DNA from: Solibacillus sp. FSL H8-0523
Lineage (GTDB): Bacteria; Bacillota; Bacilli; Bacillales_A; Planococcaceae
NCBI RefSeq assembly: GCF_038051985.1
Contig: NZ_CP150291.1
Location: forward strand, 2,976,001 to 3,040,000
Reading direction: 5' to 3'
Length of the DNA: 64,000 nt
The notes beneath the pieces were generated by a model that was not told where the DNA came from, searched no databases, and saw only the letters and a list, made by a program, of their open reading frames with translations. Below, one piece after another: positions 35,425 to 60,955 of the stretch (its first letter is position 1; every line of letters starts with the position of its first letter). The position numbers and the translations under genes were made by a program.

Positions 35425-35577
35425 TTCTACAACTCCTTTAATTAACGTTCTTCCACATCACGCTCATGCAAAAGAAAGCACAACAACTAAGTGTATGCTT
35501 CTTGCTTGCTCGTTTAGTACATCTAGTGTGATATTTCTAGATTTTTTCTGGCATGCTTGTTACTCTTGCAAAACCGC

Positions 35578-35735
35578 AAAAAAAAACGACCTCCCATATT
35601 CATGGAAAGTCGCCGTCAAGATCTATTAAACGTAATTACTTCGGCAGGATCCCCTTTCGATTGCTGTCTTCGGAATTGTTCTCCCTCGAGCAATGTACTC
35701 TTGAATCCTGCACCTCTATCATTCGAAACGATTGA
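35578..35735 (-). ncRNA. Lysine riboswitch (L box) with terminator
   Basis: On the minus strand the conserved L-box elements appear in order: GATAGAGGTGC (from 35720), TTCAAGAGTA, then GAAAGGGGA, GCCGAAG, and TTGACGG before the expression platform. The platform is a hairpin CGACTTTCCAT/ATGGGAGGTCG (35612-35602 with 35597-35587, some G-U) followed by T9 (35586-35578). In lysine excess the terminator should form and stop transcription of the ACT-domain gene. Confidence 0.9.
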
Positions 35736-39317: not shown

Positions 39318-39418
39318 CATGATCCGCGGTGACACGTGGTCGAAAGTAAGACGAATGCTAAGATCGTCAAATCCTGTGACAACGCATTCATGACCAGCAT
39401 CGTGTTGGCCTCCATCGC
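39318..39418. repeat. Candidate structured intergenic element
   Basis: A non-coding stretch between two terminators with nested pairing: GGTC (39338-39341) with GACC (39392-39395), GAATGC (39353-39358) with GCATTC (39384-39389), and GTCA (39366-39369) with TGAC (39377-39380). No frame or ribosome site. Either a structured RNA or a dispersed repeat; one copy only in this window. Confidence 0.4.
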
Positions 39419-47709: not shown

Positions 47710-47752
47710 GAAAAACACCTCCTAGTACTATTATTTATTTTTCATTAAGAAA

Positions 47753-47874
47753 AGTGCATTCGCGCCCGTTTAGCCCCGACAGACATTGGAGGACCCGTCG
47801 CAAAAGTAAACGTTCCACCACTTTTGCAGGAGGGTTCGAAATGGCCAAGGGGCTGGCGCGAAGGCCTAGACACT
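47753..47874. repeat. Structured dispersed element, copy A
   Basis: Between mutS2 and polX. Four nested helices: TTCGCGCC (47759-47766) with GGCGCGAA (47855-47862); AGCCCC (47772-47777) with GGGGCT (47849-47854); GGACCC (47791-47796) with GGGTTC (47832-47837); GCAAAAGT (47800-47807) with ACTTTTGC (47820-47827), capped by a 12-base loop AAACGTTCCACC. AGTG/CACT may close the base. A second copy with compensatory changes lies at 60221-60350. Confidence 0.75.
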
Positions 47875-47901
47875 GCTATAAAGGTGAAATTTTATATTTA
47901 C

Positions 47902-49605
47902 TTATCTTTTAATAAAGGCTTCAAATTGCTCTTTTGACCATGTATTGACGATTAACTCTTTATTTAACCATGCTTTTTGTGCATATTTCACGCCGATTTC
48001 CATAAAGCGCAACTGATCAATCGCATGCGCATCGGTATTAATCGCGACTTTCACATTTTTCTCCATCGCTAGCTGTAAATGCTCGATGCATAAATCTAAA
48101 CGGTATGGATTGGCGTTCAGCTCTACTATTTTACCATGCTCCGCTGCCCAATCAATTAAAAGTGGCACATCAGGGTCATAGCCACCACGTTCACCAACGA
48201 TTCGACCTGTTGGATGTGCAATCATATGCACGTACGGATTTTCTACAGCCGTTTTTAAACGTGCCATAATTTTATCCTGAGATTGTGTGAAGCTTGAGTG
48301 AATCGACGCAATGACAAAGTCTAGCTCTTTTAGTACATCATCATCAAAATCTAAGGTACCATCTGGTAAAATGTCCATTTCTGTCCCGTGGTATAAGCGG
48401 AACTTTGGATTTTTTTCATTAAATGCATAAATATCGAGTTTTTGCTGCGCTAAACGCTCTGGCGTTAAACCGTTTGCCACTTTTAAATATTGTGAGTGGT
48501 CGGTAATGACTGCGTGTGTATAGCCCTTAGCTATGAGCGCTTGGCCCATTTCCTCTACGTTATGCGCACCGTCTGACCATGTTGTATGCATGTGTAAATC
48601 GGAGACGATATCTTGTAATTGCACTAACCCATCCAACTCGTCTAAACGGTCTAGCTCTTTTCCACTTTCACGCACAGTCGGCGGAATGAACGGTAAATCA
48701 AAGTGTGCGAAAAACTGCTCTTCGGTTTCAAATGTTACAACCGAGCCATCTTCTTGCTCAACACCGTATTCACTAATCTTTTTTCCCATTGATTTCGCCA
48801 GCTGACGCATACGGACGTTATGATCCTTGGAACCGGTAAAGTGATGTAAAGCCGTCGCATATTCTTCACGCTTTACTAAACGGAAATCGACACTAATCGG
48901 CTCTTCGCGGTCTAAAACAACAGATACCTTCGTATCCCCCGCTGCAATTGTTTCTAAAATGGCTAAGCGTGTTAAAATTGCCTCTCGTACGACTTCATAT
49001 GCACTTGTAGCAACGATAAAGTCAATATCCTTACTCGTTTCTGCTACACGTCGGAAGCTGCCGGCTACCGAGAACTTCTCCACTTCCGGTATACTTTCCA
49101 GTAACGCATTAATTTCAAGTACTGCCGGCTCAAGCTGCCAAATCGGTAAACGTTCTTTGCGTGTGCCAAAGTTTTCAAGCTCTTTTAAAATTTTCTCTTC
49201 CGTCTTTGCCGCAAAGCCTGCTAATTCACGGACTTTCCCTGCCTCACATGCCGCTTTTAACGATTCTGCATCTGTGATAGTTAACTCTTGATAGAGCTTC
49301 GCCAGTTTTTTCCCGCCTAAGCCAGGTAGCTTCATTAAGGGTACAAGCCCTTTTGGTACAATGGCTTCCAATTCTTTTAGTGTGGAAGATTTCCCTGTTT
49401 CCACTAATTCTAAAATCACCGCAGCTGTCCCTTTACCAATGCCTTTAATAGCCGTAATATCCTCAATTTCACTTAGACTTCGCTCGTCTGCTTCAAGTGC
49501 GGCAGCCGCTTTACGAAATGCCGATACCTTAAACGGATTTTCAGCTTGTAATTCCATATATAACGCAATTTTTTCTAATGTGCGAATAATGATCTTTTTA
49601 TTCAT
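47902..49605 (-). CDS. polX: DNA polymerase/3'-5' exonuclease PolX
   Basis: 567 residues (570 in B. subtilis YshC). N-terminal helix-hairpin-helix and DNA polymerase X core (GSFRRVAETSKDIDFIVA with the catalytic aspartates), then a C-terminal PHP exonuclease domain (SDLHMHTTWSDGAH, ITDHSQYLKVANGL, GTEMDILPDG, SIHSSF, HPTGR, NTDAHA). It acts in base excision and gap repair. Ribosome site GAGAGGGG. In the zapA-cvpA-polX-mutS2 cluster. Confidence 0.96.
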   Translation of the reverse strand: MNKKIIIRTLEKIALYMELQAENPFKVSAFRKAAAALEADERSLSEIEDITAIKGIGKGTAAVILELVETGKSSTLKELEAIVPKGLVPLMKLPGLGGKKLAKLYQELTITDAESLKAACEAGKVRELAGFAAKTEEKILKELENFGTRKERLPIWQLEPAVLEINALLESIPEVEKFSVAGSFRRVAETSKDIDFIVATSAYEVVREAILTRLAILETIAAGDTKVSVVLDREEPISVDFRLVKREEYATALHHFTGSKDHNVRMRQLAKSMGKKISEYGVEQEDGSVVTFETEEQFFAHFDLPFIPPTVRESGKELDRLDELDGLVQLQDIVSDLHMHTTWSDGAHNVEEMGQALIAKGYTHAVITDHSQYLKVANGLTPERLAQQKLDIYAFNEKNPKFRLYHGTEMDILPDGTLDFDDDVLKELDFVIASIHSSFTQSQDKIMARLKTAVENPYVHMIAHPTGRIVGERGGYDPDVPLLIDWAAEHGKIVELNANPYRLDLCIEHLQLAMEKNVKVAINTDAHAIDQLRFMEIGVKYAQKAWLNKELIVNTWSKEQFEAFIKR

Positions 49606-60220: not shown

Positions 60221-60350
60221 CTAGGAACAAAAGCGCTAAAGGGCCCTTTCAGCCCCGACAAGCTTTGGAGGGTCCGACTAGAAAGTAAACGTTCTACCAC
60301 TTTCGACGGCGGGACCGAAAAGCTCGAGGGGCTGGCGCTTTAGCCTAGAC
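60221..60350. repeat. Structured dispersed element, copy B
   Basis: Same architecture as copy A with different bases: base helix CTAGG (60221-60225)/CCTAG (60344-60348); AAAGCGC (60230-60236)/GCGCTTT (60335-60341); AGCCCC (60251-60256)/GGGGCT (60328-60333); GGTCC (60271-60275)/GGACC (60312-60316); GAAAGT (60281-60286)/ACTTTC (60299-60304), with loop AAACGTTCTACC of the same 12 bases. Changes in three helices are compensatory. No open frame. Confidence 0.75.
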
Positions 60351-60499
60351 GTAGATAAAACTTTATGCAAAGTTATCTGCAATGCGATAATCAATAATTT
60401 CCTTAACAAGAAGCCAATTCATTACGTGTTATCGCCTACATATGGACATCATTTCTGAATAACTTACACTATCTGTACGAAAGAAAGGAATATGTGACG

Positions 60500-60922
60500 A
60501 TGTATCCGTTTAATAATCAACAAGATGATTTCGAGCCCTTCAATTGGCAACAACAACCTGGCTTCTTTCCACCTGGCCCTCCTGGATTCCCTGGATCTTC
60601 TAGACCCCCTGGACCTCCTGGCTTTCCGGGACCTTCTGCGCCACCCCCTGGACCTCCTGGGGGTAACATGCAATCCCCTTCACCAATGGGGCCCCCTCCT
60701 GAATTCACGCCCGCTATGACAAACTGGCATCCCGGTTCAGGAAATATGCGAAGCTGTTTATACCGCAACACGTATGTTTGGTTAAATAACCGCACTGATT
60801 TTTGGTACTTCCCGACATTTGTATCGCGAAATATCATTTTCGGCTTCAGATGGCGCCACCGACTTGGCTGGGTCTATCAGCCATTGAACCCAAACAGCAT
60901 TCGTTCATTCCAGTGTTTTTAA
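60500..60922 (+). CDS. Collagen-like (GPP-rich) hypothetical protein, possible spore surface protein
   Basis: 140 residues. Region 20-75 is a proline/glycine run of GPP and GFP triplets (PPGPPGFPG), followed by a conserved-looking C-terminal domain of aromatic-rich sequence (CLYRNTYVWLNN, DFWYFPTFVSR, GFRWRH). No signal peptide. AAAGGAA 10 bases before ATG 60500; a GTG at 60494 is too close. Proteins with short GPP tracts and this type of ending are found in spore-forming Bacilli. Location and function are inferred only. Confidence 0.7.
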   Translation: MYPFNNQQDDFEPFNWQQQPGFFPPGPPGFPGSSRPPGPPGFPGPSAPPPGPPGGNMQSPSPMGPPPEFTPAMTNWHPGSGNMRSCLYRNTYVWLNNRTDFWYFPTFVSRNIIFGFRWRHRLGWVYQPLNPNSIRSFQCF

Positions 60923-60924
60923 AA

Positions 60925-60955
60925 AGAAAAGCGTATTCGCGCCCGTTTAGCTCCT
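60925..60955 (+). repeat. Fragment of the structured dispersed element (left end)
   Basis: AAGAAAAGCGTATTCGCGCC followed by CGTTTAGCTCC matches the left end of copy A (47748-47777) with three changes, then identity stops. The partner arm is absent. It directly follows the collagen-like gene stop. Confidence 0.55.

Follow-up and report, generated by a model that had tools for sequence, protein, structure and literature searches.

The described systems closest to the element analysed here are REP and REPIN repeats, MITEs, group IIC introns and the Bacillaceae-1 RNA. REPs are described as 20-40 bp long and ending in GTAG (or CGTC), and MITEs as carrying terminal inverted repeats of 15-30 bp (PMC3733652). 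Group IIC introns are described as landing at intrinsic terminators (PMC4424553), and one intron copy of the present genome (L048) does the same. Bacillaceae-1 (RF01690) is presented as certainly RNA and probably not cis-regulatory (PMC2864571).

The element resembles each of these systems in part. It shares with REPs and REPINs the character of a short, folded, non-coding intergenic repeat in a genome with a single-copy Y1 transposase. However, its fold exceeds 100 nt in most copies and no tag is common to its two tail types: GTAG/CTAC and CGTC are seen at the base of the hairpin only where the tail is type I, never with type II. Y1 homologues are found in 4 of 16 genomes against elements in 15. 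MITEs, including Bcr1 of Bacillus cereus, are likewise non-coding, intergenic, foldable and 70-300 bp long (bcr repeats being a possible analogue), but inverted repeats of 15-30 bp were not found in the element, which has only short, imperfect inverted termini. Group IIC introns share its landing at terminators; in contrast to them, the element has neither intron RNA domains (Rfam scans match the introns only) nor a protein. Group II introns of this genome lie at 1276482, 2127292, 3229817 and 3305528 (L048-L051); their reverse transcriptase search regions score identically, and they are read as class C. A two-hairpin module in some longer copies resembles Bacillaceae-1, and both are dispersed in the genus, whereas copies A and B and the short form have no RF01690 match, and the ends, P1, P2 and tails differ. 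The element is a familiar broad kind of mobile element; its landing habit is unusual. No description of the repeat was found in the open-licence literature searched.

The window, meaning the whole 64,000-nt stretch of DNA that was analysed, contains copies A, B and C. The features of copy A are as follows; the helices P1 to P5 are placed from the sequence and the covariation test, with pair counts in addition for P3.

47744-47909, minus strand: whole insert of copy A, compared with 15 empty orthologous junctions
47759-47766 and 47855-47862, no strand assigned: arms of the outer helix P1, TTCGCGCC/GGCGCGAA
47772-47777 and 47849-47854, no strand assigned: P2, AGCCCC/GGGGCT
47782-47787 and 47840-47845, no strand assigned: P3, GACATT/AATGGC, imperfectly paired in copy A
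47791-47796 and 47832-47837, no strand assigned: P4, GGACCC/GGGTTC
47800-47827, no strand assigned: apical helix P5, arms GCAAAAGT/ACTTTTGC, with a 12-base loop at 47808-47819
47902-47904, minus strand: stop codon of the upstream gene (567 aa), inside the first bases of copy A, GATAAG

Copy A, read on the strand not drawn, runs from a 5' tail (47872-47909) through the long hairpin to its 3' end at 47744. The preliminary description had placed the first copy of a two-copy element of four nested helices at 47753-47874 and the second at 60221-60350. The fold at the first place is real and covarying, and the claimed helices, the GACA junction and the apical loop of copies A and B all lie in the sequence where they had been put. 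The count and the extent needed revision: a fifth helix, P3, had been missed, and the empty-site comparison extends the insert to 47744-47909. The supposed pair of copies proved to be a dispersed family, with 64 covariance-model matches in the genome.

The genes flanking copy A are presumably mutS2 and polX (names read from translated reading frames). The same gene junction lacks copy A in all 15 other genomes compared across the genus; between the chosen anchors in the flanking genes it measures 30-40 nt in 12 of these and 193 nt here. Other inserts occupy it in G009 (80 nt), G006 (123 nt) and G007 (281 nt), those of G006 and G007 resembling Bacillaceae-1 flanks by eye. Relative to the empty site, one base was changed or lost at the junction. 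The TAA of GATAAG is the present stop codon of the upstream minus-strand gene, whose 567-aa product, which we take to be DNA polymerase X, ends in FIKR here, where G001 reads FITKNK. By these alignments, copy A is a clean insertion.

The other two copies in the window are:

60224-60407, minus strand: copy B, which has a type I tail; its ends are estimated from the consensus of the family rather than from an empty site
60916-60954, minus strand: copy C, truncated so that a single end is left; over 39 nt it is 85% identical to copy A

Over 125 nt, copies A and B share 74% identity. P2, the GACA junction and the apical loop AAACGTTCYACC are the same in both, whereas copy B has AAAGCGC/GCGCTTT in P1, GGTCC/GGACC in P4 and GAAAGT/ACTTTC in P5. 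The 12-base apical loop, earlier regarded as conserved, is common to A and B but varies in the 31-copy alignment of the family. Copy B had no match in plasmid and phage searches. Copy C comes directly after the stop codon of a reading frame for a GPPG-rich, collagen-like product (60494-60922), and this frame is thus flanked by copies B and C.

Covariation was assessed over 39 named pairs in P1-P5 (the tool counting P4 and P5 as one helix) in 31 of the 37 copies excised from the genome, the shortened or aberrant copies L020, L029, L039, L040, L041 and L042 being left out. Standard pairs occupy 92.6% of the 1204 pair cells against 84.0% in 500 column shuffles, and cells changed on both sides number 96 against 35.9; 0 of 500 shuffles reach either value. 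The compensatory change claimed for the helices is thereby borne out. Pairs with a double change number 14 against 10.3 (3 of 500 shuffles reach this), and further pair types show no excess among the 31 copies (36 against 34.1; 89 of 500). Controls in which the pairing was slid are 25-53% paired. Because many changes are common by descent, the change counts overstate the number of events. Within subtypes, departures from the consensus affect 160 of 2413 cells in paired columns and 152 of 1356 in unpaired ones, and 20 of 22 double changes are Watson-Crick.

Inner modules differ between copies and their paired arms stay matched. P3 is GACATT/AATGTC in many copies and AGCTTT/AAAGCT in a B-like subtype, and other copies have AGCTGC/GCAGCT as P2 or ATATAGCGCC/GGGCGCTATAT as P1. 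In 26 of 31 copies the outer arms match as TAAA/TTTA or as ATTC/GAAT, and no copy crosses the two types. The outer arms are matched even though the 5' arm lies closer to the apex than to its own partner, and outer and apical types combine independently (12, 6, 7 and 4 copies; Fisher p = 1.0).

The preliminary description had also offered a structured RNA as a candidate, a claim that the strand comparisons leave unsupported. Mismatch-type cells in the helices are about equally G.U (29) and A.C (22), so that the counts favour neither strand as a folding RNA. Both copies fold better than dinucleotide shuffles on either strand; the z scores (drawn strand, then opposite strand) are -4.2 and -2.6 for copy A and -3.0 and -2.7 for copy B as DNA, and -4.0 and -2.5 for A and -2.9 and -3.4 for B as RNA. 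Among 53 copies of at least 100 nt, the opposite strand folds slightly better when G.U is allowed (mean -51.7 against -50.0, p = 0.026) and the drawn strand better when it is forbidden (p = 5e-7). These mean energies do not settle which strand would be an RNA.

With copy A as query, 43 matches were found in the genome (a single contig of 4,144,207 bases). A covariance-model search had been recommended at the outset, and the model R1, built from the 31 aligned copies, gave 69 matches at E <= 1. The 64 of these at E <= 0.0011 are the copies counted throughout; among the five weaker ones, two repeat strong copies on the reverse strand, and one (1412335) proved to be a short copy. With up to 150 candidates per genome scored, R1 matches at E <= 0.01 occur in 15 of 16 genomes of the genus, numbering 64, 30, 22, 1, 2, 8, 6 and 3 in G000-G007 and 0, 23, 7, 13, 2, 1, 8 and 3 in G008-G015. 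The proposal of a mobile repeat accordingly holds, with 64 model matches, empty orthologous sites and 0-64 copies among 16 genomes. An exact pattern scan of GTDB contigs matched six stretches, all in Solibacillus palustris MA9; since such a pattern needs most of one arm, the scan says little on distant relatives.

Between anchors, R1 matches measure 53-182 nt, to which a tail of up to about 57 nt is added. Read on the strand not drawn, copies are usually bounded by GTCTAGGC ... GGGCGCTTTAGCGCTTTT, with CTTAT or GTTCAT following. A type I tail (GTTAAGG..., about 57 nt) or a type II tail (GATAAG..., about 35 nt) precedes GTCTAGGC, and some copies have neither. Type I tails often contain TTGTGGATAA, the complement of TTATCCACAA, which resembles a DnaA box. 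In the long form, about 58 nt are inserted. The constant end, with one mismatch allowed, has 29 matches in the genome against 0 for a reversed-pattern control; six fall outside the 64, all of them small copies with still shorter interiors, and all six of these one-end copies lie behind a hairpin, one with a weak T-run. No gene was seen between the ends in the constant-end search of this genome, a search that a parent with diverged ends would escape, and coding capacity is absent from every copy seen. The copies have no consistent gene neighbour or position relative to genes. Cuts occur on either side: L043 and L253 have lost sequence at the 5' side but retain the 3' end, and L044 is cut on the other side. 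A 62-nt copy at L136 (~3304942) starts right after the apparent 3' end of one of the group II introns L048-L051.

The element prefers to lie immediately behind an intrinsic terminator that was already there, in the strand with the terminator hairpin. With copies read on the strand not drawn and a terminator defined as a hairpin with a T-rich tail no more than 130 nt ahead of the anchor, one stands upstream of 42 of the 64 copies; on the far side of the same strand the figure is 10 of 64. Terminator-like hairpins of the other, drawn strand are found upstream of 27 of 64 copies and on the far side of 7, and mononucleotide shuffling of the upstream regions leaves 2-6 of 64 in five trials. By this definition 22 of 64 copies lack a terminator, although some visible ones are missed by it (e.g., 263860). 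Distances from stem to anchor form three groups with none between, 9-17 (11 copies), 30-49 (17) and 60-67 (14), which broadly fit tail-less, type II and type I copies starting similarly behind the stem; a single type II copy and a few type I copies whose tails are shortened fall in another group. Copies A and B break the rule, A because it lies within the end of a coding sequence, B because its terminator is on the other side.

The joined flanks of 12 further copies were searched in the genus and aligned with the orthologous places (1-5 per locus, 40 in total). At nine of the 12 loci (2089368, 887363, 3253981, 3595934, 263860, 3923764, 2923656, 3044345 and 653765), at least one relative has, by eye, the terminator hairpin without the element. 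At the other three (742529, 1727541 and 2190137), relatives hold other sequence. Group IIC introns and the element thus share a kind of landing site (42 of 64 copies; a pre-existing terminator at 9 of 12 loci), with copies A and B as exceptions. G001 carries an element at the same place at 3044345, which means either that some copies are old or that two insertions struck this site; at 263860, G001 and G002 have Bacillaceae-1-like sequence. A constant target duplication was not recognised by eye at copy A and the nine resolved loci, where divergence could hide one of 2-4 bp.

Most copies also run with replication. Across 20 sampled stretches, the sign of the GC skew switches at the ends of the contig and again near 2.2 Mb; around 1600001-1612000 both skew and gene direction run the other way, as if part of a replichore had been inverted. 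Placing the terminus at 2.15-2.2 Mb makes 57 of 64 copies, read on the strand not drawn, codirectional with replication (54-57 for settings from 2.0 to 2.45 Mb). About 80% of long-ORF length in the sampled stretches is codirectional, and p for the excess over an assumed 78% of codirectional genes is 0.018-0.14. The bias arises mostly because the element lands behind the terminators of ordinary genes, and an orientation excess beyond gene bias is not established.

A match to a known Rfam family or to a plain IS or MITE remnant had been named as grounds for abandoning the first reading, and such grounds exist only in part. Copies A and B have no Rfam match, the window's three Rfam matches lying elsewhere, while the module of some longer copies falls just under the RF01690 cut-off. 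Among 13 module-bearing loci scanned, four match RF01690 at E <= 1, the best at 34.9 bits (E 0.005, L140) against a curated cut-off of 35 bits. RF01690 is the only known RNA family that comes close, and it does so below cut-off and in module-bearing copies only; other weak matches (rliE, MIR1886 and others) are far under cut-off and taken as chance. RF01690 itself matches in all 16 genomes of the genus at E <= 0.01 (6-111 per genome). A terminator-like hairpin lies downstream in 8 of 12 RF01690 copies read, and in 6 of those 8 a gene converges on it. In the window, an RF01690 match of 57 bits (39343-39408, plus strand) lies between two terminator hairpins of converging genes. Ordinary riboswitches were also seen, for lysine at window positions 35524-35726 (minus strand) and for preQ1 at L024 317-361 (minus strand), near another copy.

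We consider it probable that the family is a mobile element, dispersed and non-autonomous, that has conserved ends and interchangeable hairpin modules, prefers terminators and is recognised as a folded strand. The fold would be kept because the moving enzyme reads a folded single strand, perhaps at the replication fork. The absence of very recent copies (the best identity to copy A in the genome is 90%) counts against this account, as do the exceptional copies A and B, the 22 copies lacking a terminator by the definition used and the site that is also occupied in G001. An unlikely alternative is a MITE of a DDE transposase, whose ends would be terminal inverted repeats cut as double-stranded DNA and whose fold would be a by-product. 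Small size, the lack of coding capacity and, for type II copies, a weak inverted repeat between their two ends, GATAAG and CTTAT, fit it. However, that repeat is short and imperfect, and weaker still in type I; target duplications are unrecognised at the resolved empty sites, several tail-less copies, missing one end, still lie behind terminators, and compensated inner helices would not be expected.

Covariation, and the lower divergence of paired than of unpaired columns within subtypes, would also be produced by a functional RNA (a UTR structure, a stabiliser of transcripts or a backup of termination) selected at each site and spread by old duplication. Inconsistent gene neighbours and positions, G.U cells about as frequent as A.C, sites empty in relatives and numerous shortened copies make this very unlikely. 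We hold it equally improbable that RNA was copied into DNA at the same kind of site by a reverse transcriptase, such as that of the resident group II introns. Intron copy L048 does lie directly behind a terminator, group IIC introns are described as inserting at terminators with fork primers (PMC4424553), and a few copies (L043, L253) are cut 5' with the 3' end kept; but L044 is cut on the other side, Rfam finds no ribozyme domain in the elements, and relatives of the reverse transcriptase (E <= 1e-40) occur in only 7 of 16 genomes. As a present-day mover, the group II intron enzyme was set aside because G001 and G002, which are among the four genomes richest in the element, lack it. A retron was also rejected: the sequence preceding the retron-type reverse transcriptase gene at 1488657 (L052 1357-2406, plus strand) bears no likeness to the element by eye. 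The best PADLOC match of this enzyme is RT-Protease_XI, and a possible structured region lies before its gene.

To return to the folded-strand mobile element, no copy seen has coding capacity, so its mover must act in trans. The best single, though weak, candidate, and a doubtful one, is the one Y1 (HUH) transposase found in this genome (gene at 530195-530770; PF01797, 50 bits, 192 residues), which had no PADLOC match; we take it to be RAYT-like and its neighbour gene to be comM-like. HUH transposases have a lagging-strand preference. Homologues occur in 4 of 16 genomes, intact here, 37% identical in G005 and as fragments in G002 and G009. In G005 the relative (L112) follows an apparently broken comM-like gene, as if the pair had moved together. 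R1 copies are more numerous in these four genomes (Mann-Whitney p = 0.021; n = 4, with shared ancestry and no correction), and Bacillaceae-1 matches are not (Mann-Whitney p = 1.0); the association of Y1 with R1 copy number is only a hint. Against a role as mover, the homologue is absent from 12 of 16 genomes, including G001 with its 30 copies. No REP-like repeat was noticed by eye beside the Y1 gene.

Covariation in a dispersed repeat need not imply a functional RNA. The family offers a tractable case for finding machinery that lands at terminators. A tiny element with neither ribozyme nor protein at such sites would mean that this safe harbour is open to other machinery too. Possibly, though we lean against so far-reaching a reading, it represents a new small class of transposable element, combining recognition of a folded single strand, landing at terminators and exchange of modules, with the Bacillaceae-1 'RNA' as one module. 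If so, Bacillaceae-1 in the genus would for the most part be a module of mobile DNA rather than a gene for a dedicated small RNA. The element family puts the status of RF01690 as a plain sRNA in this genus into question.
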